Assembly: GCA_946413525.1 (NCBI GenBank)
Contig: CAMKKZ010000006.1
Span: 1 to 64,000 of the forward strand
Direction: 5' to 3'
Origin: an uncultured Oribacterium sp.
GTDB taxonomy: Bacteria > Bacillota > Clostridia > Lachnospirales > Lachnospiraceae
DNA: 64,000 nt
This document shows positions 625 to 60,693 of the stretch, piece after piece. Position numbers and translations under genes: made by a program. Within the stretch, counting starts at the first letter, position 1. Each line of letters opens with the position of its first letter. The notes beneath the pieces are model-generated. The model ran no database searches. It saw nothing but the letters and a program-made list of their open reading frames with translations, and had not been told where the DNA came from.

Positions 625-1776
625 TTGCTAAATGGAAAATATACCCAGTTATGGAAAGAAAAAGAGAGGCAGAATTGGATGGCTTATAAAGGGACAGAAA
701 AGCCAGATTATGAAGAACTACTGGAAAGGGTGAGGGAGCTTGAAGAGAAGCTGAAGCAGAAGGAACATGGAAACCGTGAGTATAAGTCCAGGCTCTTCGA
801 ATTTATTTTTGGGAGGGAGGAGCATAAGGAGTGGACGATGTCCCTTTATAATGCAATCAGCGGGAAGGCACACAAGAATCCTGCAGACATCATGATCAAT
901 ACCATGGAAGATGTTGTCTACATTAATATGAAGAATGACGTATCTTTCCTTGTGTCTGAACTTGTTAGCCTATACCGTACTATGGATATGTATGAGCAAC
1001 AGTCAACATTAAATCCGAACATGCCTGTACGGGGTTTCATGTATGCAGGAAAGTTATATGACAAGTTTATGTATACATCGAAGCTGCACAGGTATGGGAA
1101 GAAATTGCTTCCGCTTCCTATTCCGAAACTTGTGGTATTCTATAACGGAGAGGATGAAGTGGAAGAGGAAGTGATTCTTCGTCTGTCGGATTCTTTCAAA
1201 GAGGAGATTCGGAAAGCTGTACGTGCAAGGGATGAGAAACTGACACCCGATCAGGTGGAACGTGAGGTGATGAGGCTTTACAAGGAGGCAGATCCTGATA
1301 TTGAGGTGAAGGTGCGGATGCTCAATATAAACTATGGCCATAATCAGGAAATATTGCGTTCATGCAAGCCCCTGAAGGAGTATGCATGGTTTGTAGAAAG
1401 GGTCAGGGAGAACAACATGCCCGATGCGGAGGGCAGACGGGTTGGAATCGAAGCGGCAATAGACAGGACGATTGATGAAATGCCGGATGAATTTTTAATC
1501 AAGGAGTTTATTGTTGCGAACAGGGCGGAGGTTAAGGATATGTGTCTGACTGAATATAACGAAGCGGAAGCTTATGAGATGTTTAAGGAAGAGGGACGTG
1601 AAGAGGGACGTGAAGAGGGACGTGAAGAGGGATTAAAAGAAGGGTTGGAGACGGGCGTTTTTTCAACTCTTACAGACCTGGTACAAAAGGGTTTGCTTAC
1701 GATTGAGCAGGCTGCCGGGCAGGCAGGAGTGAATGTAGCTGTTTTTAAACAAAAGATGGCCGTATATGCGAGCTGA
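625..1776 (+). CDS. Rpn family recombination-promoting nuclease / PD-(D/E)XK putative transposase
   Basis: Family-like N-terminal and core (AYKGTEKPDYEE.., VVFYNGEDE) and EEGREEGREEGREEGLKEGLETG tail; start could be 679. Confidence 0.75.
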   Translation: MLNGKYTQLWKEKERQNWMAYKGTEKPDYEELLERVRELEEKLKQKEHGNREYKSRLFEFIFGREEHKEWTMSLYNAISGKAHKNPADIMINTMEDVVYINMKNDVSFLVSELVSLYRTMDMYEQQSTLNPNMPVRGFMYAGKLYDKFMYTSKLHRYGKKLLPLPIPKLVVFYNGEDEVEEEVILRLSDSFKEEIRKAVRARDEKLTPDQVEREVMRLYKEADPDIEVKVRMLNINYGHNQEILRSCKPLKEYAWFVERVRENNMPDAEGRRVGIEAAIDRTIDEMPDEFLIKEFIVANRAEVKDMCLTEYNEAEAYEMFKEEGREEGREEGREEGLKEGLETGVFSTLTDLVQKGLLTIEQAAGQAGVNVAVFKQKMAVYAS

Positions 1777-1980
1777 TTTGCCCCCGCGGGCGGTTCGCTA
1801 TGTCAGAATTCAGAGTGACAAAACCTCGCTCTGATAGATGAGCCGATTTGCCCCGCGGGCGGTTCGCTATGTCAGAATTCAGAGCGGCAAACCCCGCTCT
1901 GATAGATGAGCCTTGCTGATGCGATGCCGCATCGGTTTGTCTTGAAATTAGAGTAGCAAAAACCCACTCTGATAGGGGAG
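1772..1980 (+). repeat. Three tandem copies of the ~70-bp two-hairpin leader element
   Basis: Units 1772-1841, 1842-1910, 1911-1980, each ending gatag(at/gg)gag; stem TCAGAGCGG/CCGCTCTGA in unit 2. Confidence 0.9.
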
Positions 1981-6291: not shown

Positions 6292-6490
6292 CTGTATAAA
6301 TTGACTTGTCAATCAGTGCAATCAGCGAAAACCGCTCTTACAGGGGAGCCCGAATAGCCAGCGGCACCGTAGATGTTTGACAGGAATTAAGGTGACATAA
6401 TTACCACTTTGCCAACGGAGCCGTACAGCCAGCAGTATCCCGGATGTTTGTCAGGAATTAAAGCGGACAATAATCCATTTTAATAGAGGG
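6292..6490 (+). repeat. Three leader-element copies (first degenerate) before glycosyltransferase ATG
   Basis: Units ~6292-6347, 6348-6419, 6420-6490; last ends ccattttaatagaggg 5 nt before ATG. Confidence 0.85.
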
Positions 6491-6495
6491 AAATC

Positions 6496-16122: not shown

Positions 16123-16133
16123 TCGGATAGGAG

Positions 16134-16204
16134 CCGTATAGCCTGCGATGCCGCATCTGTTTGTCGGTAATTAAAATGGCCAAAAAACCACTTTAATAAA
16201 GGAG
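16134..16204 (+). repeat. Leader element (B type), preceded by the tail of another copy
   Basis: gccgtatagcctgcgatgccgcatctgtttgtcggtaattaaaatggccaaaaaaccactttaataaaggagg. Confidence 0.9.
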
Positions 16205-18585: not shown

Positions 18586-18789
18586 GAATTTACAAAATTT
18601 TTTACGATTCTTTAAAAATATGCTTTCCTTTTTGCATAAGACATGATAATATATAGCACGCATTTATAGTAATATTTAACATATCTTGACACTCTGGAGT
18701 CAATGTCAGATTGGGAAACAGATGAGACCCGGAAATCGTCTGCAACGATGAATCGTATATCATAATGCGCAAAGAGAATCCAGGGGGAG

Positions 18790-18857
18790 ACGATTTGCCT
18801 TCAGGCGGTTTGTAATGTCAGAACTCAGAGCTCTCAAAACTCACTCTGATATATGAG
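18790..18857 (+). repeat. Leader element (A type) upstream of cupin gene
   Basis: cgatttgccttcaggcggtttgtaatgtcagaactcagagctctcaaaactcactctgatatatgag. Confidence 0.85.
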
Positions 18858-24112: not shown

Positions 24113-24143
24113 TGGGAACGTTGGCGAGGAATGCCCACGGCCA

Positions 24144-24215
24144 GCCTTGTTGACGCGATGCCGCATTGATGTAGCAAGAAATCAGGGTGGTCAAAGACCA
24201 TTTTGATAAAGGAGG
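24144..24215 (+). repeat. Leader element before amidohydrolase
   Basis: Stem ATCAGGGTGGTC-aaa-GACCATTTTGAT then aaaggagg, ATG at 24221. Confidence 0.9.
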
Positions 24216-24220
24216 ATTTA

Positions 24221-25138
24221 ATGAAGAAAATAGATGCGCATCTTCATCTTGCGAAGGTTCTCGCAGGATATTGCAGGAGGGGGGAACTCAGGGCGGCCGG
24301 TAATGGCAAGGCCGTATGGGGCACCGGCGAGGAATTCCAGCTTTTGCCTCAGAACGGCGACTATGGCGAGGATCATTTCTATGCCGAGGAAGCTCTGAAG
24401 ATCATGGACAGGAACGATGTGGAAAAGGCCGTGCTGATGAACGGCAGCATGTATGGTTTCCAGAATCTGTACCATATCGAGCTCCTTCAGAAATATCCGG
24501 ACAGGTTCTGCCCGTCCTGCACCATTGACCCTTTTATGACCAACTACATGGAAGCCATGGAGCGGTTCTTCGAGGAGCTGCATTTCCATCTGGCAAAGTT
24601 CGAGGTCAGCTCGGGCGGCGGGCTTATGGGCTGCCATGAGCCGTTCTCGCTTTCCGGTGATAAGATGTCCCCAATTTATGCCCTGGTGGAGAAGCATCAC
24701 GGCGTAGTGGCGCTGGATGTCGGGGATATTTATATGGACAGCCATCAGACAGCCGCTCTTCTCCGTATATCGGACCGTTACCCTGAACTGAAACTGGTGG
24801 TATGCCATCTGCTCGCTCCGGACAGGAATATGCATGACGCCTGGGCGGCGGAGCTTCGGATGCTGAAGCAGGCGAATGTCTGGTTTGACATTGCCGCCAT
24901 GCCGAAGATCATGGGGCCGGACAAGTATCCTTATCCGGAAACCTGCCAGTATTTAAGGGAAGCGGCCGACATCCTCGGAGCGGATCGGCTGATGTGGGGG
25001 ACGGACGCGCCCTTCGCGGCCACGCAGGACAGCTATGAGCACCTGACGGATTATCTCGGGAAGACGGATCTGTTCACAGAAGATGAGCTTCGGAAGATTT
25101 ATTATGACAATGCCTATAAAGTTTATTTTGAGAAATAA
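24221..25138 (+). CDS. Amidohydrolase-2 family metal-dependent hydrolase
   Basis: IDAHLHLAK, LKLVVCHLLAPDR, LMWGTDAPFAAT. Confidence 0.8.
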   Translation: MKKIDAHLHLAKVLAGYCRRGELRAAGNGKAVWGTGEEFQLLPQNGDYGEDHFYAEEALKIMDRNDVEKAVLMNGSMYGFQNLYHIELLQKYPDRFCPSCTIDPFMTNYMEAMERFFEELHFHLAKFEVSSGGGLMGCHEPFSLSGDKMSPIYALVEKHHGVVALDVGDIYMDSHQTAALLRISDRYPELKLVVCHLLAPDRNMHDAWAAELRMLKQANVWFDIAAMPKIMGPDKYPYPETCQYLREAADILGADRLMWGTDAPFAATQDSYEHLTDYLGKTDLFTEDELRKIYYDNAYKVYFEK

Positions 25139-25286: not shown

Positions 25287-25976
25287 ATGCAGACAGTTTA
25301 TGATTTGGGGAATGGCCTGAGGTTGGTTGACTTGTCGAAGCTGGTGGATCCCGCGACGGAGACACGCCGCTGCAAGCTTCATCGTTTCAATACCGGCGGT
25401 CCGATTCCCGATTTTCATACCAATGTGGATATTATGACGCATCTCGGAACCCATGCGGAGTGTCCTTATCATCATGACGACAACTGGCCGGATGTGACAG
25501 GCGTGCCGCTCACGACCTTTGTTGGCCGCGGCGTTTATGTGGATTTCAAGGAGAGCGTCAAGCCGAACACTCATATCACGGCAGCCGATCTTGACAGGGA
25601 GGCCGGCAAGGTGCGTGAGGGCGACATCGTGATCATCGACTCTTCCTACAAACTGAATCCTTTTACCCCGGATACGAACACGGAAAAAGACAAGAGGCTT
25701 TTCGTCAACGGCGAGACGGCAGAATGGTTCAAGGCAAAGAAGGTCAAGGCTGTTGGTTTCGGCGATGGCGTTTCCATTGAAAACTGCAATGAGGATGTCA
25801 AGCCCTTCCATGACATACTGCTTGCTGTGAATATTATCTTCATTGAGGTCCTGAAGAACCTGGAGCAGCTTCAGAAGGATGTGTTCTTTATTTCCTTTGC
25901 TCCGCTGCCGATCAAGGGTCTGGATTCCAGCCCGGTGCATGCGTATGCCATTGAAGGCCTGCCGGAGTTTTCATAA
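25287..25976 (+). CDS. Cyclase family protein (kynurenine formamidase-like)
   Basis: FHTNVDIMTHLGTHAECPYHHDD metal-binding motif. Confidence 0.85.
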   Translation: MQTVYDLGNGLRLVDLSKLVDPATETRRCKLHRFNTGGPIPDFHTNVDIMTHLGTHAECPYHHDDNWPDVTGVPLTTFVGRGVYVDFKESVKPNTHITAADLDREAGKVREGDIVIIDSSYKLNPFTPDTNTEKDKRLFVNGETAEWFKAKKVKAVGFGDGVSIENCNEDVKPFHDILLAVNIIFIEVLKNLEQLQKDVFFISFAPLPIKGLDSSPVHAYAIEGLPEFS

Positions 25977-25977
25977 T

Positions 25978-26143
25978 TTGACGTGATGCCACAGGCATTG
26001 AGGCCCATTTGTGGCGCGTCTGCGGCACAAATCAAGTATGAAAAGCTTGCCTTTCATACTTTGACTTAATGCCGCAGGCGTTGAGTCCCATTTGTGTCGC
26101 GCCAGCGGCACAAATGAAGTATGAAAAGCTTGCTTTTCATACT
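25978..26143 (+). repeat. Tandem pair of ~83-bp repeat family 2
   Basis: 25978-26060 and 26061-26143, each ending in AGTATGAAAAGCTTGC(C/T)TTTCATACT. Confidence 0.92.
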
Positions 26144-26273
26144 TGCAGCCATGGAGCCTCGCTCCACAAAAGATTATGAAAGATTCCTTTCGTATTTATG
26201 TGGGTCATTGATCAATTGTTATTCACAAAACATTTATAAATAATTCCGAAGTATTTCAAAGGATTTAATTGAT

Positions 26274-27309: not shown

Positions 27310-27342
27310 GGGAGGCTGTTGAAAAGACAGTCTCCTTTTTGT
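27310..27342 (+). terminator. Rho-independent terminator
   Basis: GGAGGCTGT-tgaaaag-ACAGTCTCC then ttttt. Confidence 0.75.
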
Positions 27343-27348
27343 TATACT

Positions 27349-27484
27349 TTGATTTGATGCCGCAGGTATTGAGTCCGATTTGTGTCTCGCTGGCGGCACG
27401 AATGAAGTATGAAAGAAACCTTTCATGATCTTCTGTGGGGTGGGACCCTATGACCGTAAGTATGAAAGGCTTGCCTTTCATACT
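27349..27484 (+). repeat. Family-2 repeat copy split by ~25 bp inside the terminal palindrome region
   Basis: tttgatgccgcaggtattgagtccgatttgtgtctcgctggcggcacgaatgaagtatgaaag; second palindrome aagtatgaaaggcttgcctttcatact. Confidence 0.8.
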
Positions 27485-27646
27485 CATGAGCATATTGGTC
27501 ATGAAACGATGCGTCAGGAAACCTGCGCTGACAGCAAAGGAGCTGAAAGTAATCTTATCCTTGATGAAATAGAGATTTTGTTATAAGATGGTTTGTTGGA
27601 AATTTGCAAATCAGCGATCAAGACACCCGGAAGTCTTTTTGGCTTA

Positions 27647-27720
27647 GGAGCAGTATGAATCGCCATACCGCAGATGTTTGTCAGGAATTAAAGCGGCCGG
27701 AAGCAATTGATTTTATATGG
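27647..27720 (+). repeat. Degenerate leader element before oppB-like gene
   Basis: cgccataccgcagatgtttgtcaggaattaaagcggcc core, 3' half decayed. Confidence 0.7.
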
Positions 27721-27747: not shown

Positions 27748-28665
27748 ATGGTCAGATATATTATAAAGCGCATTCTGGCGGGGCTTTTGACGGCGCTTGC
27801 CGTTGCCACGCTGACTTTTTTTATCATGAATCTGGTGCCCGGCGGACCTTTCCTTGCGGAAAAGGCGGTAACGCCCCAGGCACAGGCAGCCATGGAGGCC
27901 AAATATGGGCTGGATAAGCCGCTTTTTGTGCAATATCTGACGTATATGAATGACCTTCTCCATGGGAATATGGGTATGTCCCTGAAGAAGAGGGGCTTTA
28001 CGGTCAATGACATTATCCGGAACAAGTTTCCGGTATCCGCGAGGCTCGGCGGGATGGCGGTGCTTGTCGCCGTCCTTATCGGCGTGCCGTTGGGGGCCAT
28101 TGCGGCCTATAAGAGGGGAGGGACGGCGGATAACGTCATTATCCTCTTCTCCACGGCGGGAATCGCGGTTCCGAGCTTCCTGACCTCCACGCTCATGATG
28201 TATCTTTTGTCGGTCAGGCTGAAGCTCCTTCCGTCCCTTGGACTGGATTCCCCCGCAAGCTATATCATGCCGGTCATCGCTCTTGCGTTGTACCCTTCCT
28301 GTTATATTGCCCGTCTTATGCGTTCTTCCATGCTGGATGTAATCGGGCAGGATTACATGAGGACGGCCCGGGCGAAGGGGGTCAGTCCGTTCAAGTCCAT
28401 TTTCAAGCACGCGCTTCGGAATGCCATTCTCCCTGTAGTGACTTATCTGGGGCCCCTCCTTGCCTCTTTGATGACGGGGAGCTTCATTATAGAGAAGATT
28501 TTCACGATTCCGGGTCTTGGCCACGAATTTGTCAGCGCGATTCCTTCCCGAGATTACCCGCTTATTATGGGAACCACGATTTTTTTGGCCACTTTCATTA
28601 TATTTATGAATGTACTTGTGGATATCGCTTACGCCTTTATAGACCCAAGGATCAAGCTGAAATAG
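27748..28665 (+). CDS. Peptide/nickel-type ABC permease (OppB/DppB-like)
   Basis: MVRYIIKRILAGLLTALAVATLTFFIMNLVPGGPF; DYMRTARAKGVSPFKSIFKHALRNAILPV. Confidence 0.92.
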   Translation: MVRYIIKRILAGLLTALAVATLTFFIMNLVPGGPFLAEKAVTPQAQAAMEAKYGLDKPLFVQYLTYMNDLLHGNMGMSLKKRGFTVNDIIRNKFPVSARLGGMAVLVAVLIGVPLGAIAAYKRGGTADNVIILFSTAGIAVPSFLTSTLMMYLLSVRLKLLPSLGLDSPASYIMPVIALALYPSCYIARLMRSSMLDVIGQDYMRTARAKGVSPFKSIFKHALRNAILPVVTYLGPLLASLMTGSFIIEKIFTIPGLGHEFVSAIPSRDYPLIMGTTIFLATFIIFMNVLVDIAYAFIDPRIKLK

Positions 28666-28694
28666 CGGAGGCGGATGGGCTCTTTGACAGAAGA

Positions 28695-28767
28695 GCCGAT
28701 TTGTCCCGCAGGCGGTTCGCCATGTCAGAATTCAGAGGGGTCAAAAACCCACTTTGATAAAAGAGGA
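28695..28767 (+). repeat. Leader element between oppB-like and oppC-like genes
   Basis: gccgatttgtcccgcaggcggttcgccatgtcagaattcagaggggtcaaaaacccactttgataaaagagg. Confidence 0.9.
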
Positions 28768-29829: not shown

Positions 29830-29845
29830 GGTAACTACTCAGGTA

Positions 29846-29965
29846 GCCGCTTGCACTCGCTGCAAGCGGCGTACACATAAGCCGAAAAGCAGGCAAAAGA
29901 CGCATGGGAATGCGCTTAAGCGCCGCGTCTTTTGCCGTAACTGCTCAGGGAACCTGAGCAGTTAC
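29846..29965. terminator. Cluster of three perfect hairpins
   Basis: GCCGCTTGCA/TGCAAGCGGC (29846-29870), GGCAAAAGACGC/GCGTCTTTTGCC (29892-29936), GTAACTGCTCAGG/CCTGAGCAGTTAC (29937-29965). Confidence 0.6.
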
Positions 29966-29977
29966 GAAATGAGATTT

Positions 29978-30135
29978 AAGCACTTTGATAGAGGAACTGT
30001 ATAGATTGTTTCCGCAGATTTTTGTTGATATTTAGAATGGCCAGAGAACCACTTTGATAGAGGGACCGTGTAGCTTTCGATACCGCAGCTATTTGTCAGG
30101 AATTAAAATGGCCAAAAACCACTTTAATAGAGGAG
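29978..30135 (+). repeat. Tail plus two full leader elements before oppD-like gene
   Basis: Units 29996-30064 and 30065-30135; ends ccactttaatagaggag, ATG at 30144. Confidence 0.92.
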
Positions 30136-30143
30136 TTCGGTTT

Positions 30144-31298
30144 ATGAGCGAGTATTTGGTGGATATCCGTCATGAGAGGCTATCCTTCTTCACGCCGGCG
30201 GGGGAGGTCAAGGCCTTGAATGATGTTTCCCTCCGTATGAAGGATGGGGAGGTGCTGGGGATCGTCGGTGAATCCGGATCCGGAAAGTCGGTTACGGCGT
30301 ATTCATTAATGGGACTGACGGCCGATAATGGAAAAATTATCGGAGGGGAGGTAAGCTTCAACGGACATCGAATCGACCAGATGGTAGAGAAGGAGATCCG
30401 CCGGATCCGGGGGAAGGAGATCAGCATCATCTTCCAGGATCCGATGACTTCCCTGAATCCGGTCTATACGATCGGGAACCAGATTGAGGAGGCCGTGCGC
30501 GTACACGGGGACAAGAGCCGAAAAGAGGCCAGGGCAAGGGCCCGGGAGCTTCTTGAACTGGTGGGGATCAATGAGCCGGACAAGCGCCTCAGGCAGTACC
30601 CGCACGAGCTCTCCGGGGGGATGCGGCAAAGGGTGATGATTGCCATCGCGCTGGCCTGCGAGCCCAAGCTCCTCATTGCCGACGAGCCGACAACCGCTCT
30701 TGACGTGACTATCCAGGCACAGATCCTCGAGCTTATGAACGAGTTGAAGAAGAAGCTGGGGATGGGGATCATACTGATTACCCATGACCTGGGCGTGGTG
30801 GCTTCCATGTGCGACAATATCGCGGTAATGTATGCGGGGGAGATCGTGGAATACGGCTCCTGTGACGACATTTTCTATAATCCGATGCATGAGTATACCA
30901 AGGGACTTTTGAAATCCATTCCGAAATTTCAGGAAAAAGAGTACTCAAAGCTGGTTCCGATTGAAGGGCAGCCCGTGGATTTGCTGAACCCACCGAAGGG
31001 ATGTCCCTTCGCGCCGCGCTGCCGGAGCTGTATGCGCATCTGCCTCTCCAGGAAGCCGGAAAGGATGGAGTTTGGAGACGGAGGACATTATTCGAGGTGC
31101 TGGCTGAGGCAGAAGGAAGCATTTGAAGCCGGAGGGCTTAATGGAATGCCGTCGGTGGGAGGAGTGACGGTGGCTGGCGCGGCGCCGGCGGGGGCAATAC
31201 CGAATGACGCGGTGTCGGCAGGAAGCGGAATGGAAACCGCCGTCTCCGAAAAGCCGGAAGGGGCGTTTCCTCAGGAGACGCGGGAGGTGGACTCATGA
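30144..31298 (+). CDS. Oligopeptide ABC ATP-binding protein (OppD-like)
   Basis: [49 protein letters not shown]. Confidence 0.93.
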
Positions 31299-32278: not shown

Positions 32279-32417
32279 CGGCTAAAGTGAGAGCTTTTCC
32301 GTTATAGATATCTCATGCGTAAGAGCGGGTTTTGACCGCTCTGAATTCAGGTGAGCCGTAGCGCCTGAAGTCAAGATACTTTCAGTACTGTTGTTTTACG
32401 GCATAAGGAGGAAATGT

Positions 32418-36559: not shown

Positions 36560-39500
36560 ATGTTAAAACGAAAGCTTTGGAAGAAAAAGCTTGCCCGGCT
36601 TGCCGCATTGGCACTCTCGGCGAGCATGATGCTTTCCAATGCCAGTTCGGCTTTTGCGCAGGGAAGCGCTTCAGAGGCCGTTGACATGGAGGAGCAGACG
36701 GAAGGGGAGCCTGATGAAAAATTGGGGCTCCTGGAAGAAGCGGAGGAGTTTTCTGAGGAATCCTTTGAAGAGGGTGAGGACGCTCTGGATGAGGGTTCGG
36801 AGCAGGAAGCTGCTGAAGATGCGGAAAATGAAGGGGAAGAGAATACGGCCAATCCGATGGAAGAGGGCGGAGATGCCGGGGATGAGGTCGCTCCTGAAGA
36901 AAACGAGGATGCCGAATCCGAAATAAGCGGCGAGACGACCGATGGGGAGACAGTCGAAGCCACGGATGAAACGTCTGATCCGGAGAATGCGGCAGGTAAT
37001 GAATCAAACGATGCTTCTGCCGACGGGACTGAGGATGCCTTGGATTCCGAGGGGGACGTTGCTGACGAATCCCTGTATTCGGAGGATGGAAACGACGCGG
37101 CAGGCGAGGCAGAGAACCCGGATGACGCAGGGGACGATGCCCTGAATGACGCGGAGACGGAAAGCACAGAAGCGGATGCCCTTGTTAATGACGAGAGCGC
37201 GGAAGCCCTTCCCGGGGATGAAACCGGTGATGCTCCTGAATCCGTTGAATCTGAAGAGGAAACGGGAGAGGGGCAGGCCGATGTTTCCGGAGAGGCAGCC
37301 GGAGAAGCCGCGGATGCCGGGGCAATTGATGCAGCGGACGGCGCAGGACTGCCGGAAGAGGCCGATGGTCAAAATGATGAATCGGAGGAGGCTCTGACCG
37401 GAGAAGAAACTCTGGACGGGGAAAGCGAAGAGCTTCCCGCCGAGGATACATCGGAGGATGGAGCATCCGATGCGGGTGAAGAAACATTAACGGATGAATC
37501 CACAGAGGATGCGAACGCCGAGGAAAGCGGAGAGCTTCCGGCTGAGGAAGCTTCTGAGGATGGCGCATCCGGCGAAGGCGAGGAGGCAATCACGGAAGAG
37601 TCCGGCGAAGTCGAGGAAGCCATCGCGGAAGAGTCCGGAGAGGATACCGAAGCAATCGCGGAGGAGTCTCCGGAGGATGCTGTCTCCGAGGAGTCTACAG
37701 AAGGCGCAGCAGAGGAATCCGATGGTGAGGTAGAGGCGGAAGGCGAGGCTGCGTCAGAGGAAGTCGGGGATGCTGTCATTCAGGAGGAAGCCGCCGGGGA
37801 AGAAACGGCCGCAATGGCCGAGGATTCGGAGGCTGAAAGCGCGGAAGCCGAAAGTACGGAAGCGGAGAGCATGGAAGCGGCATCAGAGAGCGCAGAAGCA
37901 GCCGGGGAGCTTCAGGACATCGCCCTTGACGAAAACGCCGTATCCGGCCAGGCCGGCAGCGTGAACCCGATCAGCAGCGTCAGCTTTACGGGGGAAGGGT
38001 ATGACGAGGATGACAGTCTCTACAATATTGGCCTTTCTGGCGTGACCACGATGCAGATCGAACTGGAGATAGAGTACGACAAGAGCGGCGGGTACAGCAC
38101 GGATCAGGTGGTCGTTTACGAAAGTGCAAATGAAAATATATTCACTGTCAGCAGCACGGGACTTCTTACGGCGGTCGGTACAGGCACCGCGGATGTCAGC
38201 GTACTTGCGATGAATCCCGGGGATGAGGAAAGCAAGGACTTTATAAGATCAGCCAACGTGCAGGTAAGCGATTCGGTCTACAAGGTTTCCTTTAACGCAA
38301 ACGGCGGGAAATTCCTCGAGGGGCAGGGGAAAACAATATACGTTCCGGGCAATTCGAGTAAATCTATCGATTATGGTGAAACGGTGGCAACGCGCGCTGG
38401 TTACGAAATGAGAGGCTGGGCTACCACGGCCGACGCGGCATATGCCGAATATTACAGTTTTTTAGATTCTGTAAGCCAGGATATGACGTTGTATGCCGTA
38501 TGGAAGAAGCCGTATACGGTGAAATACGATGCCAATGGCGGCGCCTTTAATGATGGCTATGGGGATGACCGGGTGGTTTATGAAGGGGATTCGGCATATC
38601 TTTATGGAGATTATGCAGCCACCCGTGATGGTTACAAATTAGTCGGCTGGGCCACAATGAAAACAGCGACGGAGAAAGAATATCCCATCATAGTTACAAA
38701 GAACATAACGCTGTATGCTGTCTGGAAGAAGCCGTGTACGGTGAAGTTCGATGCAAACGGGGGTACATTCACAAGCGAGGATTACGGCGAGCCGGAGGAA
38801 GGCGCAGTAGGAGAGCTCATGTACCTTAACGGCGACTATGTGGCAACGAAAGACGGCTACAAGATGGTAGGCTGGTCCGAAAGCAAGGATGCCTCATCTG
38901 CTTCGTATACTGATAGCTTCACCCCTTCAAAGGATACGACGCTCTATGCCGTATGGAAGAAGATGCTCAAGGTCACCTTCGACCCGAATGGCGGCAAATT
39001 CACAAATGGGGACAAGACGAAGGTGGAAGAGACTGCCGAGGGCGAGGAAATCTACGTCAATAGATACTCAAATGACATTGAAAACGGCAGCTATACCCTT
39101 GTGGGCTGGACGGAGGCAAAGGACGGCTCAGGCCGGGTCTATTCCGGGGCTAACTATGATTCATATATTCCCACTGGCGATGTGACATTATATGCGCAGT
39201 GGTCCTATCCTTATACCGTGAAGTTCAACAAGAACGGCGGCAAGCTGTCCGAGTATGTCAAGGATGAGTCCGTGGGCTACGGTGATTCCATTTATCTCCA
39301 CACGGGCGAAAACGGAGGCACGAGGAAGGGCTATAAACTGGTCGGCTGGACCGAGAACAAGAAGGGTACCGGCACGGTCTGGACCGACAGGTACCTGGTG
39401 AAGAAGGACGTCACTCTCTACGCAAAATGGGAGAAGGTAAAGACCCAGTACAAGATCAGCTTCAATGTGAACGGCGGGACATGGGCCAGCGGGGACAACG

Positions 39501-41746
39501 CTTATTATAATGTAGAAAATTACAAGAAGGGCATGACCCTTGAGGCCGGCGAGACATTCTACCTTGCGACGGGCGGGTCCGTTGCCACGAAGAAGGGCAA
39601 GCTTCTTACAGGTTGGACGGAAAAGAAGAATAAGGGCGAGGTATTGACCGGCGAGTATGAGGTGACGAAGAAGGTCACGCTCTATGCCTATTGGGAGACT
39701 GCCTATACGGTGACCTTGAACGGGAACGGCGGTGTGGATTCCAATGGGGCAAAAACACAGAGTTCCGTTGTTTTGAAAGGGAATACCATCTGGCTTCCCG
39801 ACTCCTCCGCTTTCGCGAAGGAAGGCTATACCCTGGCCGGCTGGACGGTCAAGAAGAATACGGGGACGGTTCTGAACGGCGAGTACAAGCCCGCGAAGAA
39901 CGTTACCCTTTACGCGAAGTGGATCAAGAACGTCACGGTCACCCTGAACGCAGGCAAGGGCTGGTTCGATTTTACCAGCGAGTCCAAAGCCCATACCAAA
40001 AAAGTTGGCCTTGGGAAGGGTATGAGCGCCGGCAATGCCTTCGTTACACCGTACCTTTCCGGCAAGGTTTTCGGGGGCTGGTACTCTGACAAGGCCCTGA
40101 AAAAGCCGGTGAAGCGTTCAGCCGTGGTCAGCAAGAATGTGACTTATTACGCGAAATGGCTGGACAAGCAGTACAAGGTCACGGTGAAAAACCTGGCCGG
40201 CGCGAATTACACCAACAGGGCCACTGGGGAATATGTGGAGAATTCCGGCGTTGACAGCTATTCCTTCTATATCCAGAAAGGGACGAAGATCGGCAGCTTT
40301 GAGGCCAGGAACAAGCGGTACAAAAATGCTGATTTCTACTTTGACAGTAAGTTCACCAAACCTGTTGACTCAAGCTTTGTGCCGACAGGAAATGTGACGG
40401 TTTACGCGTCCTGGCCGGAGGATTCGGGAAATATCTATATCTTATGGGATGCGAACGGCGGCTACTATGCCGGCAGCTCCAGTAAGTCTTCTTCCGGTTA
40501 CTGGTATATGGAACCGGGCGACATGCTTGCAAAGCGTGGATATGACGGCAGCGAAATGAGGAAGGATGGTTATTATTTCGTTGGCTGGTATGACGCGGAG
40601 GATGTGTACGCAAAGGTCCTTCCGAATGCCCACGTATTCACAAAGTCCACCTGCCTCAAGGCAAAGTGGGCGAAGGGCGTCAAGGTCACATTGAACCTTG
40701 CCGGCGGAAAGTTTGGTTCGTATGACAAGAGAAGGTACCTGCCTTCCTTCACCGTGAAGAAAGGACAGAGGTTGGGGGATGCGGATCTGTATTTGCCGAT
40801 TCCCAGCAAGGAGAACTATGCGTTTGTCGGCTGGAAGAGTTCCCTGACCAAAAAGACTGTTGAGTCTCTGTATAATGAGACGATCACGAAGGCGGTCACC
40901 TATACCGCGGTATGGAAGAAGGCTGCTGCGGCTACGACCAAGACAGTTACGCTGACCCTGATGGGCGGGGATGGATCCATTTATGACCCCGTGACCGGGC
41001 AGTATGTCACGAAGCTCCAAGTCAAGGTCCGGAAGGGAACTACTTACAGCAGCGCGCTTAATGGTGGTTCTTTCTATGTCTTTAACGGCAATTACCATAG
41101 CATTGACCATAGCATTGACTATGAGTCAATACATAATACGGACAAAACCCTGGAGAATACCGGCTGGTCCCTGACAAAGAAAGGCAAAGCGCTGGATTGG
41201 GATTATAAGTTTAACAAGAATGCGACGCTTTACCCGGTATTTGAAAAGACGGGCTATCATATCGTACTGGTCATGAACGGAGGACTGCAAGGCCGATCCT
41301 CTTATAATCAGCCGTTCAACACATATACTGTGAAAAAAGGCAACACGACGTACCTTCCTGATGCGAATAATATGTCGAAGGAAGGCTGCAAGTTCGCCGG
41401 CTGGTATACCGACGCGGCGCTTAAGAAGGCGGTCAAGAATCCGAAGAGCTTCAAGCCGACAGCCGACACGCATCTCTTCGCGAAATGGACAACGGTGGCC
41501 GTAACGAAGATCACCCTGAAGAAGTCCAGCACCACGCTGGGGCTCTACAAGTACTTTGACCTCAAGAATTACCTGGATGTGAAGCCGGCCACGGCTTCCA
41601 GGGAGTGCCTGAGCTACAAGAGCAACAAGCCGGCGGTGGTTTCTGTTACCGATGATGGCCTTGTCAAGGGTCTCAAGAAGGGTACCGCGAAGATCACGGT
41701 GAGTTACAAGAAGAAGACAGCGACCTTCACGGTAACTGTGAAGTAA
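36560..41746 (+). CDS. Giant surface protein: signal peptide, ~430-aa acidic region, InlB-type (flg_new) repeats, C-terminal Ig-like Big_2
   Basis: Many VKFDANGGTF...GYKLVGW..TLYAVWKK repeats; C-term SYKSNKPAVVSVTDDGLVKGLKKGTAKITVSY. Confidence 0.9.
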   Translation: MLKRKLWKKKLARLAALALSASMMLSNASSAFAQGSASEAVDMEEQTEGEPDEKLGLLEEAEEFSEESFEEGEDALDEGSEQEAAEDAENEGEENTANPMEEGGDAGDEVAPEENEDAESEISGETTDGETVEATDETSDPENAAGNESNDASADGTEDALDSEGDVADESLYSEDGNDAAGEAENPDDAGDDALNDAETESTEADALVNDESAEALPGDETGDAPESVESEEETGEGQADVSGEAAGEAADAGAIDAADGAGLPEEADGQNDESEEALTGEETLDGESEELPAEDTSEDGASDAGEETLTDESTEDANAEESGELPAEEASEDGASGEGEEAITEESGEVEEAIAEESGEDTEAIAEESPEDAVSEESTEGAAEESDGEVEAEGEAASEEVGDAVIQEEAAGEETAAMAEDSEAESAEAESTEAESMEAASESAEAAGELQDIALDENAVSGQAGSVNPISSVSFTGEGYDEDDSLYNIGLSGVTTMQIELEIEYDKSGGYSTDQVVVYESANENIFTVSSTGLLTAVGTGTADVSVLAMNPGDEESKDFIRSANVQVSDSVYKVSFNANGGKFLEGQGKTIYVPGNSSKSIDYGETVATRAGYEMRGWATTADAAYAEYYSFLDSVSQDMTLYAVWKKPYTVKYDANGGAFNDGYGDDRVVYEGDSAYLYGDYAATRDGYKLVGWATMKTATEKEYPIIVTKNITLYAVWKKPCTVKFDANGGTFTSEDYGEPEEGAVGELMYLNGDYVATKDGYKMVGWSESKDASSASYTDSFTPSKDTTLYAVWKKMLKVTFDPNGGKFTNGDKTKVEETAEGEEIYVNRYSNDIENGSYTLVGWTEAKDGSGRVYSGANYDSYIPTGDVTLYAQWSYPYTVKFNKNGGKLSEYVKDESVGYGDSIYLHTGENGGTRKGYKLVGWTENKKGTGTVWTDRYLVKKDVTLYAKWEKVKTQYKISFNVNGGTWASGDNAYYNVENYKKGMTLEAGETFYLATGGSVATKKGKLLTGWTEKKNKGEVLTGEYEVTKKVTLYAYWETAYTVTLNGNGGVDSNGAKTQSSVVLKGNTIWLPDSSAFAKEGYTLAGWTVKKNTGTVLNGEYKPAKNVTLYAKWIKNVTVTLNAGKGWFDFTSESKAHTKKVGLGKGMSAGNAFVTPYLSGKVFGGWYSDKALKKPVKRSAVVSKNVTYYAKWLDKQYKVTVKNLAGANYTNRATGEYVENSGVDSYSFYIQKGTKIGSFEARNKRYKNADFYFDSKFTKPVDSSFVPTGNVTVYASWPEDSGNIYILWDANGGYYAGSSSKSSSGYWYMEPGDMLAKRGYDGSEMRKDGYYFVGWYDAEDVYAKVLPNAHVFTKSTCLKAKWAKGVKVTLNLAGGKFGSYDKRRYLPSFTVKKGQRLGDADLYLPIPSKENYAFVGWKSSLTKKTVESLYNETITKAVTYTAVWKKAAAATTKTVTLTLMGGDGSIYDPVTGQYVTKLQVKVRKGTTYSSALNGGSFYVFNGNYHSIDHSIDYESIHNTDKTLENTGWSLTKKGKALDWDYKFNKNATLYPVFEKTGYHIVLVMNGGLQGRSSYNQPFNTYTVKKGNTTYLPDANNMSKEGCKFAGWYTDAALKKAVKNPKSFKPTADTHLFAKWTTVAVTKITLKKSSTTLGLYKYFDLKNYLDVKPATASRECLSYKSNKPAVVSVTDDGLVKGLKKGTAKITVSYKKKTATFTVTVK

Positions 41747-46629: not shown

Positions 46630-46806
46630 TCTGAGCGGATTAGCGAAAACCCACTCTGACAGGGAAGTCGATCAGTCACACAATCGGGTCGCTATGAAAG
46701 AATCTGGAGTTAAATAAAAATCAATTTGATAGATGAGCCGATTAGTCACGCAGGCGGGGCACTCTGTCAGAATTTAGAGAAAAAATACCAATTTGATAGA
46801 TGAGGA
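46630..46806 (+). repeat. Leader elements (partial plus two) before GPH symporter
   Basis: Units 46667-46736 and 46737-46806, ends atttgatagatgaggag, ATG at 46816. Confidence 0.85.
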
Positions 46807-46815
46807 GAAGATTTA

Positions 46816-48255
46816 ATGGAAGAAAAGACCTATTTAAAATGGTATAATAAAGTTGGTTACGGTTCCGGGGACATTGCCGGCAACGTGGTATATGCGCTGC
46901 TGTCAGCCTTTGTTATGATTTTCCTGACGGACACTGTGGGGATGAATGCGGGTGTGGTGGGCACGCTGATCGCGGTCTCCAAGCTTTTTGACGGGATCAG
47001 CGACATTCTTTTCGGTTCCCTGATCGACAAGACCAAAAGCAGGATGGGCAAGGCTCGTCCGTGGATGTTCTATGGGTATTTTGGCTGCGCGGTCTGCCTG
47101 GTGGCCATTTTTTCCATACCGGCGGGGATCAGTCCCTTTGCCAAATACGCCTGGTTTTTCATTGCGTATACGTTGCTGAATGCCGGTTTCTATACGGCCA
47201 ATAATATCGCTTATTCCGCATTGACGGCCCTCATTACCAAAAATAATCATGAGCGGGTGCAGATGGGATCCATCCGGTTCATGTTTGCCTTCGGAACAAG
47301 CATGCTGATCCAGACGATTACCGTGGGAATGGTGGCTCATTTCGGGGGCGGTGCTGCGGCCTGGAGGACTGTGGCCATCATCTATGCCATTGTGGGGCTG
47401 ATTTCCAATACACTTTCAGTCATGTCCGTCCGGGAGCTTTCGCCGGAGGAGCTTGAGGACGGGGAAACGGTGAAGGATGGTGAAATCAAGGGCGGCGAAA
47501 TAAAAGGTGGAGAAATTAAGGGTGGTGAAATGAAGATAGCCGGCGGGCAGGAGGAAAAATACAGCCTTGCGGACGCTTTTGGTCTGTTGGCGAAGAACAA
47601 GTATTTCCTTATGATCTGTGGAGCCTATTTGTTAATGCAGATTTATTCCGCTACCTTGAATATGGGCATTTATTTCATGACCTATGTGTTGAAAAACGCG
47701 AACCTGCTGGGGGTTTTCTCCTGGGCCATCAATATCCCGATGATCATCGGTCTGCTCTTCACACCGACGCTGGTCGCAAGGTTCCACGGCATGTACAGGC
47801 TGAATATCTATGGATATACCTTGGGGACGATCGGGCGGCTCGGGACGGCCATTGCCGGCTATATGGGGAGCGTCCCGCTGATGCTGGCCTGCACCGCCAT
47901 CGCGGCCCTGGGAATGAGTCCGCTCCAGGGGGACATGAATGCCCTGATCGCGACTACCTCGGAATATACTTACCTTACGACGGGAAAGAGGGTGGACGGC
48001 ACCATGTATTCCTGTACTTCCTTCGGGACGAAGGTGGGCGGTGGTCTGGGGACGGCCATTGCCGGATGGCTGCTGGCTCTCAGCGGCTATGTCGGCGGAG
48101 CCGCGGAGCAGTCCGCCTCCTGCATGAACATGCTGCATGTCATGTATCTGTGGCTGCCGATGATATTCAACCTCCTGATCACGCTGCTCCTTACAAAGCT
48201 TGATGTGGAAAAGGCAAACGAACGGCTGAAGGCCGGACACGCCAGACAGCAGTAA
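46816..48255 (+). CDS. GPH family sugar:cation symporter (MFS)
   Basis: KVGYGSGDIAGNVVYALLSAFVMIFLTDTVGM; DKTKSRMGKARPWMFYG; GGEIK repeats in loop. Confidence 0.9.
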   Translation: MEEKTYLKWYNKVGYGSGDIAGNVVYALLSAFVMIFLTDTVGMNAGVVGTLIAVSKLFDGISDILFGSLIDKTKSRMGKARPWMFYGYFGCAVCLVAIFSIPAGISPFAKYAWFFIAYTLLNAGFYTANNIAYSALTALITKNNHERVQMGSIRFMFAFGTSMLIQTITVGMVAHFGGGAAAWRTVAIIYAIVGLISNTLSVMSVRELSPEELEDGETVKDGEIKGGEIKGGEIKGGEMKIAGGQEEKYSLADAFGLLAKNKYFLMICGAYLLMQIYSATLNMGIYFMTYVLKNANLLGVFSWAINIPMIIGLLFTPTLVARFHGMYRLNIYGYTLGTIGRLGTAIAGYMGSVPLMLACTAIAALGMSPLQGDMNALIATTSEYTYLTTGKRVDGTMYSCTSFGTKVGGGLGTAIAGWLLALSGYVGGAAEQSASCMNMLHVMYLWLPMIFNLLITLLLTKLDVEKANERLKAGHARQQ

Positions 48256-48396
48256 GCGGAAGCTGCGGCGCTGCTCAAGACGCTGGCTAATGAATCTATG
48301 AAACCGGCATGGCTTATGCAGAGAGGTGAAAGGAGAGCTCAATTCTATAAAAGGACGGGTCTGTCCTGCATCAGCGACGGTCCGGGGAATAGAGGA

Positions 48397-48469
48397 GCCG
48401 TATAGCTTGCGATACCGCAGATGTCAGTCAGGAATTAAAACGGTCAAAAAACCACTTTGATAGAGGAGG
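48397..48469 (+). repeat. Leader element before methyltransferase gene
   Basis: ccgtatagcttgcgataccgcagatgtcagtcaggaattaaaacggtcaaaaaaccactttgatagaggagg, ATG at 48476. Confidence 0.92.
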
Positions 48470-48475
48470 GCGAGG

Positions 48476-50362
48476 ATGGAATCGGTAGACTTGACGGTGC
48501 GGAACATTGAGAAAATCGAGGCGCTGTTTCCGAATTGCGTTACGGAGACGATGGACGCCGAAGGGAAACCGCGGAAAGCAATTAATTTTGACATGCTTCG
48601 GCAGATGCTTTCCGCGGACGTCCTTGATGGCGGTGAGGCGTATGAGTTTACATGGGTTGGAAAGAAGGCCGCTATTGCAGAGGCGAACAAACCCATAAGG
48701 AAGACATTACGACCATGCAAAAGCCAAAGTGTAAACTGGAACGGTACGGGGAATCTCTACATAGAGGGGGACAACCTTGAAGTTCTCAAGCTGCTTCAGG
48801 AAAGCTATCCTGGCGCGGTGAAGGTCATATATATAGATCCGCCGTATAATACGGGCAATGATTTCATATACAGGGATGATTTTTCCATGTCGGCTGATGC
48901 TTATGAAGCCGGGAGGGGAACATACGATGAGGAAGGGAATAAATTATTCAGGAACACCGATTCCAATGGGAGGTTTCACTCCGACTGGTGCTCCATGATT
49001 TATTCCCGGCTTCTTGTCGCGAGGAATCTTCTTTCAGAGGACGGGGTCATTTTCATTTCCATTGATGATAATGAAGAAGGAAATTTAAAGAAGATCTGCG
49101 ATGAGATATTCGGCAGTGAAAACGCGATCGCGGTATTTCCGAGACTTGCGACGAAAAGCGGAAAAACTCCGCTAACGTATATGGTGTGCCATGATTATGT
49201 ATTGTGCTACGCGAAATCCCGGCATGATATCTTTGTCGGACAGGCCTTTGAGGACGAGAGCTATAAGTATTCCGATGAGTTCGTGGAAGAAAGGGGCCGT
49301 TACAATTTAAAGCAGCCGTTGGATTGCAATTCAATCAGTTACTCGGCCTCTTTGGATTATCCCATAGAGCATGACGGGGTCACATATTATCCGGGCTCGG
49401 ATTATGAAAAGTATCTGAAAAGGAAGGAGGGCAGGCACCTGCCGAAGGATTACGCGTGGCGATGGTCCAGGGATCTTTTCGAGTTTGGCCTGAAAAATGG
49501 ATGGATCGTTTTTCAAAATGGAAGAATTTATACAAAGGGCTATTTGAATGCCGCAATCGAAAAATCGAAGGACGGATCATATTCAATCATAAAAAGAGAA
49601 AAGACGAGGAGGATGTCCACTATTGATTTTGTGTCAAATGAATATTCCAATGATATGGCAAAAAAACAATTGGCATCTTACAAAATCCCAGTCCGATTCG
49701 ATTTTCCGAAGCCGGTTGAGCTGATCGAAAAGCTGATTTCTTCCCATTATGATCGGAATGCCCTGGTAATGGATTTCTTTAGCGGCTCCGCGACGACGGC
49801 AGAAGCGGTCTTCAAACAAAATGAAGCCGATGGTGGTTCAAGACGATTCATCCTGATCCAATTGCCGGAAGATACGCGGGACAAAAAATATAAAACGATT
49901 TGTGAAATCGGGAAAGAACGCATCCGAAGAGCCGGCACGAAATACAAGGGTCAGGATGTCGGCTTCCGTGTATTGAAGCTTGATGAGAGCAATATGCGGG
50001 ATGTCTGTTTCAGCGCGGACGAATACGATCAGGAGATGCTGGCCATGCTGGAGTCCAGCATCAAGGAAGACCGTACGGATCTGGATCTCCTGTTCGAATG
50101 TCTTCTGGAATGGGGACTCCCGCTTTCCCTGCCCTATACATCTGAGGAAATTGATGGCTGCAAGGTGCATACGTATAATGACGGGGACTTGATTGCCTGT
50201 TTTGACGAAAATATCTCGAACAAGGTAGTAGAGGTCATGGCAAGGCGGCAGCCGTTCCGGGCTGCATTCCGGGACAGCAGCTTTCCGAACAGTGCCGCCA
50301 GGATCAACTCGAGAGAAATATTCAGGCTTCTTGCCCCGAATACCAGGGTGAAGATTATTTAA
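48476..50362 (+). CDS. Type III-style (Mod-like) adenine-specific DNA methyltransferase
   Basis: YIDPPYNTGNDFIY, SIDDNEEGNLKKICDEIFG, MDFFSGSATTAEAVFKQN. Confidence 0.9.
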   Translation: MESVDLTVRNIEKIEALFPNCVTETMDAEGKPRKAINFDMLRQMLSADVLDGGEAYEFTWVGKKAAIAEANKPIRKTLRPCKSQSVNWNGTGNLYIEGDNLEVLKLLQESYPGAVKVIYIDPPYNTGNDFIYRDDFSMSADAYEAGRGTYDEEGNKLFRNTDSNGRFHSDWCSMIYSRLLVARNLLSEDGVIFISIDDNEEGNLKKICDEIFGSENAIAVFPRLATKSGKTPLTYMVCHDYVLCYAKSRHDIFVGQAFEDESYKYSDEFVEERGRYNLKQPLDCNSISYSASLDYPIEHDGVTYYPGSDYEKYLKRKEGRHLPKDYAWRWSRDLFEFGLKNGWIVFQNGRIYTKGYLNAAIEKSKDGSYSIIKREKTRRMSTIDFVSNEYSNDMAKKQLASYKIPVRFDFPKPVELIEKLISSHYDRNALVMDFFSGSATTAEAVFKQNEADGGSRRFILIQLPEDTRDKKYKTICEIGKERIRRAGTKYKGQDVGFRVLKLDESNMRDVCFSADEYDQEMLAMLESSIKEDRTDLDLLFECLLEWGLPLSLPYTSEEIDGCKVHTYNDGDLIACFDENISNKVVEVMARRQPFRAAFRDSSFPNSAARINSREIFRLLAPNTRVKII

Positions 50363-50374
50363 GGGGCCATATAG

Positions 50375-50401
50375 GGAAATGCTGATTTAATCAGCATTTC
50401 C
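50375..50401. terminator. Perfect 13-bp stem hairpin after methyltransferase
   Basis: GGAAATGCTGATT-t-AATCAGCATTTCC. Confidence 0.6.
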
Positions 50402-50466
50402 TTAGCTTGCGATACCGCATCCGTATGTCGGCAATTAAATGGCAAAAACTACTTTGATAGAGGAGG
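50401..50466 (+). repeat. Leader element with no downstream ORF
   Basis: cttagcttgcgataccgcatccgtatgtcggcaattaaatggcaaaaactactttgatagaggag. Confidence 0.9.
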
Positions 50467-50495: not shown

Positions 50496-50607
50496 CTCAT
50501 TTATCAGGACGGGCTTTGGCACTCTGAATTCTGACATAACGAACCGCCTGCGGGGCAAATCAGCTCATTTATCAGAGCGGGCTTTTGTCGCTTTGAAAAT
50601 GGGCTGA
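50496..50607 (-). repeat. Two inverted leader elements (second partial)
   Basis: Reverse complement reads gagctgatttgccccgcaggcggttcgttatgtcagaattcagagtgccaaagcccgtcctgataaatgag. Confidence 0.9.
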
Positions 50608-58499: not shown

Positions 58500-59370
58500 T
58501 ATATTATGCTGTTATTTCACGGAACCTGAGATTTTATGTTGGGGTGATGTTATAGAAATTCAAATTACAGACGATTTCGATTTGGACCGGATCGCCGACA
58601 GCGGTCAGTGCTTCCGCTGGAATAAGGATAGCTCCGGTTCATATCGGATCATTCATAAAGGGCATTGCCTGCGGATACGGCCTCTTGGAAAGGACAGATT
58701 TGCCCTTTCCTGCAAAGAAGATGTGTATCAGGCTGTCTGGTACGATTACTTTGATCTTGGAGAAGATTATCGTTCCATCCGCGGGCGCGTGAACCGGGAG
58801 GTCGATCCTTTCCTTGCCAGTGCCTGCGAGTACGGGAAAGGAATCCGCATTCTCCGGCAGGATCCCTGGGAAATGCTGATCAGCTTCATCATTTCCCAAA
58901 ACAAGAACATCCCGGCCATCAAAAAGAGCGTGGAACTGCTCTGCGAGGCTGCCGGGAAGCATTGCGAAGCTTCGGAGGACGGCTATTATCTGTTCCCCAC
59001 ACCGGAGGAGATCCTTTCCCTGAGTGATGAAGCGCTTGCGGCCTGCCGGATCGGATATCGATGCCGATATGTAAAAGCGGCGGCCATGGATGTGGCGGAG
59101 GGAAAGCTGAATCTGGAAGGGCTGAAAAATGAAAGCGAAGGGACGACGATCAAGGCGCTGACGAGCGTCTGCGGCGTCGGAGCCAAGGTGGCAAACTGCG
59201 TGTCATTGTTTGGCCTTCATCATGTTAACGCGTTTCCAATCGACGTATGGATCCGCAGAATCCTGGAAAATGAATATCCGGACGGATACCCAATGGAGAA
59301 TTACAACCCCTATAACGGCATTTACCAGCAATACATGTTTTACTTTTACCGGACAGGATACGGAAGCTGA
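58474..59370 (+). CDS. 8-oxoguanine DNA glycosylase-like HhH-GPD protein (start uncertain)
   Basis: SGQCFRWNKD, QDPWEMLISFIISQNKNIPAIKKSV, LTSVCGVGAKVANCVSLFGLHHVNAFPIDVWIRRI. Confidence 0.85.
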   Translation: MFLMEHSYPILCCYFTEPEILCWGDVIEIQITDDFDLDRIADSGQCFRWNKDSSGSYRIIHKGHCLRIRPLGKDRFALSCKEDVYQAVWYDYFDLGEDYRSIRGRVNREVDPFLASACEYGKGIRILRQDPWEMLISFIISQNKNIPAIKKSVELLCEAAGKHCEASEDGYYLFPTPEEILSLSDEALAACRIGYRCRYVKAAAMDVAEGKLNLEGLKNESEGTTIKALTSVCGVGAKVANCVSLFGLHHVNAFPIDVWIRRILENEYPDGYPMENYNPYNGIYQQYMFYFYRTGYGS

Positions 59371-59560
59371 TTTGCCCCACCATTCGGAGCGGTATGTCAT
59401 GAAATCAGAGCAGCCAAAACCTGCTCTAATAGGGAAGCCATAGAGCTTGCGGTACCGTGGGCTATTTGTCAGGAATTAATGCGGTCAAAAAACCACGATG
59501 CGATGCGGCATCGGTTTGTCATGAACTCAGAGTGGCCAAAGCCCACTCTGATAGGGGAGA
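59365..59560 (+). repeat. Three leader elements, middle one truncated by the third
   Basis: Units 59365-59435, 59436-59495, 59496-59560 (TCAGAGTGG..CCACTCTGA), ends gataggggag, ATG at 59569. Confidence 0.9.
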
Positions 59561-59788: not shown

Positions 59789-59810
59789 TTCTCACGGAGC
59801 CGTTTACAGG

Positions 59811-59953
59811 AGCTATAGAGATTGTGATACCGTAGTTGTTTGTCGATAATTAAAATGGCTAAAAGCCATTTTGATAGAGAAGCCATATAGCCTGCGATAC
59901 CGCGGCTGTTTTTCAGGGATTAAAATGGCTCAAAAACCACTTTAATAGAGGAG
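59811..59953 (+). repeat. Two tandem leader elements upstream of XRE gene
   Basis: 59811-59880 (ATTAAAATGGCT-aaa-AGCCATTTTGAT) and 59881-59953 ending ccactttaatagaggag. Confidence 0.92.
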
Positions 59954-60290: not shown

Positions 60291-60511
60291 GACGGACGGG
60301 GATCCATGTTCCCATATTATTTGCTTTCGTATATCCTGTATAGAAAAGTTCTATCACAGATTGCTATTCACAGGCAGTCATGAGACTTTTGCATGAAGAG
60401 TCTTTAGGTGGACAAGCAGGATATAATCCTGTGGGGGCAATAAGTTGATCATGACCTGCTGAATCCTATATGTACTAACATGAAAAACTTTCTTATCTGT
60501 TACTACTATGT

Positions 60512-60606
60512 AAGTATGAAAAGCAGGCTTTTCATACTTCATTTGTGCCGCTGGCGCGACACAAATGGGACTCAACGCCTGCGGCATTAAGTCAAAGTAT
60601 GAAGAA
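60512..60606 (-). repeat. Inverted copy of ~83-bp repeat family 2
   Basis: aagtatgaaaagcaggcttttcatacttcatttgtgccgctggcgcgacacaaatgggactcaacgcctgcggcattaagtcaaagtatg. Confidence 0.9.
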
Positions 60607-60693
60607 ACCTATTTCCAGGAGAATAAAGACGGAAAAGATCCTGGCTGTTTTGTGTCCAATACTCACTTCTCTGCGATGATAGCACACGCAGGG

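Follow-up and report, generated by a model that had tools for sequence, protein, structure and literature searches.

We have found that the hairpins lying beside Shine-Dalgarno (SD) sequences in this DNA, here called H2, form the 3' half of a dispersed repeat of ~70 nt. With a probability that we would put at roughly 0.6, this repeat is a lineage-specific, non-autonomous mobile element, REP- or MITE-like, that inserts 3' of an SD-like motif and whose own 3' end then provides an SD anew. In doing so it appears to place a new ribosome-binding site before the next gene, essential genes included. The repeat is best described as one that works like a REP or an IS200-type MITE and is new in sequence, as judged from the open-access subset of the literature that was searched. 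The DNA comes from an uncultured Oribacterium sp. (GCA_946413525.1), a Lachnospiraceae genome of rumen type, and we refer to positions 1-64,000 of contig CAMKKZ010000006.1, the whole stretch analysed, as the window. We document below the copy number, orientation and position of the repeat, its restriction to one lineage, its gapless insertion at one site and its arrival within conserved operons.

Each unit runs from GAGCC through a first hairpin (H1), a conserved TNTGTCAGRAATTA and the H2 hairpin (a TYARARYGG arm, an A-rich loop and a CCAYTYTRA arm) to a terminal RATAGAGGAG, which is an SD. Three subfamilies share this plan and differ in their H1 sequences, which read TTGCGATACCGCA in subfamily A, CCCCGCAGGCGG in subfamily B, where the unit ends in GATGAG, and GATGCGATGCCGCATC in subfamily C. 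A profile seeded from nine copies and then iterated found 26 copies in the window, with E-values down to 4e-19, far above chance (Table 1). Profile searches found 182 copies in 862 kb of the genome and 376 copies at E<=0.01 in 1.69 Mb, which is 42% of the 4.02 Mb assembly and from which ~900 copies genome-wide can be extrapolated. Units often stand in tandem, head-to-tail, with a period of 68-71 nt; among 251 arrays, 146 are single units and 105 hold two to five, arrays of at least four units being rare (7/251). The copies are strongly diverged from one another, so that mobility at present is no more than possible. No Rfam 15 family matched the window above its gathering score.

Table 1. Copies of the repeat in the window
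Feature	Position	Strand	Context
Array of three units (two subfamily B, one C)	1768..1980	+	no + strand gene start after
Array of two subfamily A units	6341..6491	+	terminal SD 4 nt before GtrII-like glucosyltransferase gene at 6496
Single subfamily A unit	16125..16204	+	left flank ATAGGAG; SD before ATG 16210 (AAA-ATPase-like ORF)
Subfamily B unit	18783..18857	+	
Subfamily C unit, three G-U pairs in H2	24141..24214	+	SD 6 nt before amidohydrolase gene at 24221
5' part of subfamily A unit	27642..27702	+	upstream of OppB-like permease gene (27748-28665)
Subfamily B unit	28682..28765	+	between OppB-like and OppC-like permease genes; short plain-SD gap in relatives
Array of two subfamily A units	29986..30135	+	terminal SD 8 nt before Opp ATPase gene at 30144
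Partial unit, H2 only	32322..32349	-	
Array of two or three decayed B-like units	46638..46804	+	SD 11 nt before MFS transporter gene at 46816
Single subfamily A unit	48389..48468	+	left flank ATAGAGGAG; SD 7 nt before DNA methylase gene at 48476
Subfamily A unit	50391..50465	+	methylase gene 3' end, convergent region
Two subfamily B units, one partial	50496..50597	-	convergent region
Array of three units (C/B-like, A, C)	59364..59559	+	
Array of two subfamily A units	59806..59953	+	first unit holds the hairpin noted earlier at 59811-59880
H2 hairpin noted earlier, TTAAAATGGCTAAAAGCCATTTTGA	59850..59874	+	

The repeat has a marked preference for one orientation and one position with respect to genes. 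Over 0.9 Mb, a start codon follows within 25 nt of the terminal GAGGAG in 68 of 128 arrays, as compared with 6.7% of random intergenic positions; this count took ORFs of at least 80 aa from simple ORF calling, and its array-to-start distances are one base short (the profile has 63 positions where 64 were assumed), which leaves the result unaffected. For about half of the 128 arrays no start codon follows directly; 19 arrays stand between convergent genes. Where arrays lie between co-directional genes in the same 0.9 Mb, 78 are in the sense orientation versus 4 antisense. By simple ORF calling 139/182 copies are intergenic, several of the others falling in the 5' overcall of the next ORF, and ~9% of genes have a unit just upstream. 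In predicted folds the SD is unpaired. The genes behind the arrays are unrelated: in the window they encode a glucosyltransferase, an amidohydrolase, Opp permeases and ATPase, an MFS transporter and a DNA methylase, and elsewhere, from reading of the N-termini, we take them to include leuS, alaS, secA, tsaB, tsaD, miaA, clpC and flagellar genes.

The two ends of the element resemble each other and resemble an SD. Across 52 first copies the left flank is SD-like up to the junction (G at -2 in 79%, A at -1 in 65%, G at 0 in 73%) and conservation is gone within about five bases; in several first copies this flank is ATAGAGGAG-like. Of 96 left junctions, 63 agree with GGAG in at least three of its four positions, where chance would give 5%. 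At the right end RATAGAGGAG is followed by G in half of cases, with nothing conserved beyond. At a given locus the left end agrees with the right one slightly more than expected (p<=0.0005 over all copies; p=0.002 when 6-mers of subfamily A are compared), a hint that favours a short duplication of the target over an IS200-type rule. The left GGAG may be the native target, or it may be what is left of a decayed end, either the element's own or an earlier unit's; the right motif may be part of the element or, again, a short target duplication. Terminal inverted repeats were absent by eye, the 5' end (CCGTATAG/CCGATTTG/CCTTGCTG) not being the reverse complement of the 3' end (GATAGAGGAG), and GT[AG]G or CGTC is absent from the hairpin foot, the end consensus being GGAG/TGAG.

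Searches of related genomes place the repeat in one lineage. BLAST against 60 relatives returned nothing save a 23-nt match in genome G013, by the look of it due to chance; a profile search with strict filters did not find the repeat in the other 396 genomes of the family, and 800 kb of the relative G005 held no units. A pattern scan of genome contigs for the repeat gave no match, and none was found in the plasmid and phage records searched. Two exact-pattern matches in viral contigs we regard as chance, there being no full unit there.

At several loci the arrival of the repeat can be compared with sites that lack it. Two gaps of a flagellar operon measure 258 and 214 nt here (three and two units) versus 17 and 27 nt in G005. 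The cleanest case is the Opp operon of the window, where the arrival of the repeat is visible against the short plain-SD gaps of relatives: the OppB-OppC gap here holds one unit and the OppC-ATPase gap two units plus another hairpin repeat, and in relatives, whose OppC is 70-93% identical, the gaps are mostly 9-29 nt with a plain SD (for example TAGGAGGGATTTGGGAAATG), three relatives having longer gaps of 58 and about 110 nt. Among public records, Lachnospiraceae MAGs come nearest, several of them from ruminants. Upstream regions of leuS in relatives were too diverged for the junction to be aligned. Within the genome itself, one copy (~L149:14415-14490) sits inside another dispersed repeat, several copies of which have an empty site that reads uninterrupted, GGCAAAGCCAGATTGAG|TCTGGCCACCCGG. 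The filled site reads GGCAAAGCAGGATCGAA|[element]GATAGATTGAG|GCCAGCCACCCGG and both sides align without gaps; GATCGAA stands left of the unit and GATTGAG right of it, the insertion point being directly after GATTGAG. This site is compatible with a 5-7 nt duplication of GATTGAG, and the right end of the unit has the extra T of the target. It is the sole set of related empty sites in the part of the genome read, which we count against our preferred explanation. The host repeat, of ~110 nt with the palindrome CTCAATCTGGCAAAGCCAGATTGAG, occurs at G000:C4 (L149:14330-14510) and at loci L182-L193, with 79 partial or full matches in the genome, and the insertion lies directly behind its hairpin foot.

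We propose that an element of ~70 nt, with two small hairpins, no terminal inverted repeats and no gene, would insert immediately 3' of (A)GGAG or TGAG, in the same orientation as that motif, and would carry or duplicate the target motif at its own 3' end. The native SD would be left upstream of the element, and the terminal RATAGAGGAG, being at normal spacing from the downstream gene, would serve as its SD, so that insertion could be nearly silent for translation. Because each new 3' end would again be a target, head-to-tail arrays with their 68-71 nt period could build up. We infer that the mobilising enzyme may read the hairpins as single-stranded nucleic acid, that SDs are probably targeted and not merely tolerated, and that the element's own SD is likely to be the one in use.

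The hairpin itself had been read differently in an earlier note on this DNA, which took the changes on both sides of its distal stem as a sign of selection on RNA structure. The stems named there are present at their positions or within a few bases of them (AGAGCGG/CCGCTCT, AGAGCAG/CTGCTCT, AGAGTGG/CCACTCT and AAAATGGCT/AGCCATTTT), as is AGGGTGGTC/GACCATTTT with its three G-U pairs; the loops are A-rich, the element does end in an SD-like GAGGAG, and the changes on both sides of the stem are real. The hairpin is likewise genuinely beside an SD, but the one at 59811-59880 belongs to an inner unit whose own SD has no start codon after it. The A-C mismatch named for 30065-30135 is indeed there but is no exception: in subfamily A most copies have A-C at that pair (52/82), and at the next pair C-A is the commonest state in subfamily B (16/32). 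Covariation above the phylogenetic background, the lack of which would by the note's own criterion refute its reading, was not seen: in an R-scape-style test on 133 copies, whose null moves substitutions between columns on the tree, 0/9 H2 pairs were significant (best E = 32), because most double changes are differences between the three subfamilies and so represent few events.

A weaker, aggregate test, in which substitutions stay in their column and are reassigned to branches of similar clade size, put paired cells at 85.7% versus 79.3% in the null (SD 3.8; 16/500 nulls as high), Watson-Crick cells at 78.3% versus 69.9% (4/500 nulls as high) and A-C cells at 8.7% versus 15.1%; short columns give poor trees, so that this excess carries little weight. 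A null with substitutions placed on any branch was dropped, being biased to deep branches. Over 144 copies, H2 cells are 78% Watson-Crick, 8% G-T and 8% A-C, and the overall counts of G-T and A-C (99 vs 109) are so nearly equal that RNA and either DNA strand are not separated. For subfamily A the folds are mostly not better than those of shuffles (z -0.19, 0.08, 0.75), and for several copies of subfamilies B and C they are good (z -2.2 to -3.7). When 20 copies were aligned with MAFFT, RNAalifold returned no consensus structure, probably owing to a one-base shift between subfamilies A and B/C in that alignment; the pairing counts used subfamily-anchored arms in its place. These patterns suggest that pairing is under modest constraint, whether as RNA or as single-stranded DNA.

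Of the suggested selection on RNA structure, then, what stands is this modest constraint on pairing; no pair is significant and a mobile repeat is favoured. We consider it unlikely that the hairpin is a cis-regulatory RNA kept upstream of the SD by selection for control of translation or mRNA stability in a set of genes. The sense orientation, the location before start codons, the slight aggregate excess of pairing with its deficit of A-C cells, and the good folds of several B and C copies are what such an RNA would lead one to expect. Against it, no pair rises above the phylogenetic null, the majority state of subfamily A is a mismatch and most of its copies fold no better than shuffles, the downstream genes share no common function, and the units in tandem arrays and between convergent genes have no start codon to act on. 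The repeat is also missing at orthologous genes in relatives (the Opp loci and G005) and in other genomes of the family. It is this strong lineage restriction, taken with the evidence for insertion and the unrelated downstream genes, that argues for a mobile repeat over a conserved cis-regulatory RNA. We find it less likely again that there has been no transposition at all and that the repeat has spread among SD-containing leaders through replication slippage, unequal recombination and gene conversion. Such processes would fit the regular tandem period and the strong divergence among copies; the copies in conserved operons that are missing in relatives, and the gapless insertion into an unrelated repeat, call for insertion at new sites, which local recombination does not supply.

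If the element is mobile, it is possible, though we suggest it tentatively, that it is the REP of a lone Y1 (HUH) transposase and moves as single-stranded DNA in the manner of IS200/IS605, the hairpins marking its left and right ends and GGAG serving as both cleavage and target site. The genome has exactly one Y1 transposase (PF01797) gene, at G000:C9:6677-7414 (L056:1135-1875, minus strand). Its 246-aa product scores 82.2 bits against NCBIfam NF047646 REP_Tyr_transpos (cut-off 80) and has HVH and Y-x-x-x-NP motifs and an HTH-like C-terminal region. A tandem four-unit array, of a length rare in the genome, ends ~100 nt upstream of the gene start, and the two subterminal hairpins, lack of terminal inverted repeats, and target motif on the left with a like motif on the right are in keeping with this mechanism. 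With a unit upstream of ~9% of genes, however, an array beside the Y1 gene is weak evidence. In addition, the protein resembles those of subclass 2.1 (TIRYT; Bertels group 1), also in its HTH-like C-terminal region, a placement made by resemblance, and Quentin and co-workers found no REP-like sequences with proteins of this subclass, whose genes are associated with GGGG[AT][CG]A[CG] inverted repeats (PMC6006769). The Y1 gene here, too, has GGACCGTCCCC repeats downstream, as in subclass 2.1, and several tandem CCCGGGGTCTTGTTATTACAATAAT repeats further upstream, and similar genes in the relatives G004 and G002 are flanked by GGGGACGG-type repeats and are without the ~70-nt element. No autonomous partner element with the same ends was identified. 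The GTAG/CGTC foot being missing, and the link to the transposase being a candidate one, we do not file the repeat as a REP.

The mobile repeat that we favour shares features with several known systems. Like the REPs of REPtrons (RAYT, TnpA-REP), it has small imperfect hairpins, several hundred mostly intergenic copies, subfamilies within one genome, tandem clusters and one REP-associated transposase gene with adjoining copies, which here may be chance neighbours. It differs from them in having GGAG/TGAG in place of a GT[AG]G or CGTC foot, two hairpins in each unit of ~70 nt, a strict orientation to the downstream gene, an SD-like target and an SD at its end, and in that its candidate transposase looks like a subclass reported to be without REPs (PMC6006769). 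With IS200/IS605 ends and the MITEs derived from them it has in common two subterminal hairpins, no terminal inverted repeats, and a target motif kept in the left flank with a like motif at the right end; here, however, there is no transposase between the ends, no parent IS was found, the target is an SD, and the agreement of left and right ends at single loci might reflect a short target duplication. REP2 of Neisseria includes a ribosome-binding site. The Correia/NEMIS elements (MITEs) and REP2 of Neisseria, like the repeat described here, bring expression signals into leaders through many intergenic copies. REP2 copies are located upstream of genes, whose expression they affect, and in Correia elements there are inverted repeats of 26 bp and duplications of TA (PMC3898611). 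Our repeat is unrelated to these in sequence and host, and its target, unlike theirs, is itself SD-like.

Mobile repeats of bacteria are usually held to settle where they do least harm. The repeat described here settles at the ribosome-binding site, which is a required signal, and is seemingly tolerated because it brings that signal along. If so, this would account for hundreds of tolerated insertions before genes such as leuS, alaS and secA, would provide a natural set of parallel leader replacements for studies of translation initiation, and would point to a candidate substrate for a class of REP-associated transposases that have no known repeats. A fuller picture, which we put forward with slightly more doubt than the link to the Y1 gene, is that a transposase of a supposedly REP-less, REP-associated subclass moves a two-hairpin element that targets the SD itself, and that a mobile ribosome-binding site has in this way replaced the native one in roughly a tenth of genes, essential ones included, giving them one shared leader.

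We note that the genome carries other repeats as well. A second dispersed repeat of ~95 nt (AAGTATGAAAAGCTTGCTTTTCATACTT ... CGGCACAAATGAAGTATG) lies at 25969-26147, 27337-27485 and 60509-60607 of the window; it is among the most frequent 14-mers of the sampled genome and is also present in the flagellar operon gaps and beside the empty-site locus. A third dispersed family, a long hairpin repeat (ACTCAGGTAGCCGCTTGCACTCGCTGCAAGCGGCG ... CCTGAGCAGTTAC), occupies 29831-29985 between OppC and the Opp ATPase and has a near-copy in another operon gap on contig C1. At the start of the contig, positions 1-80 are made up of short tandem GGGGAAATCTAATCCG units, and positions 303-494 hold three 64-nt tandem units (TGGCAGGGGAAATGGG...) with relatives elsewhere in the genome. 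Lastly, positions 36560-41746 encode a protein of 1728 aa with eight Listeria-Bacteroides (InlB-type) repeats and bacterial Ig-like domains.
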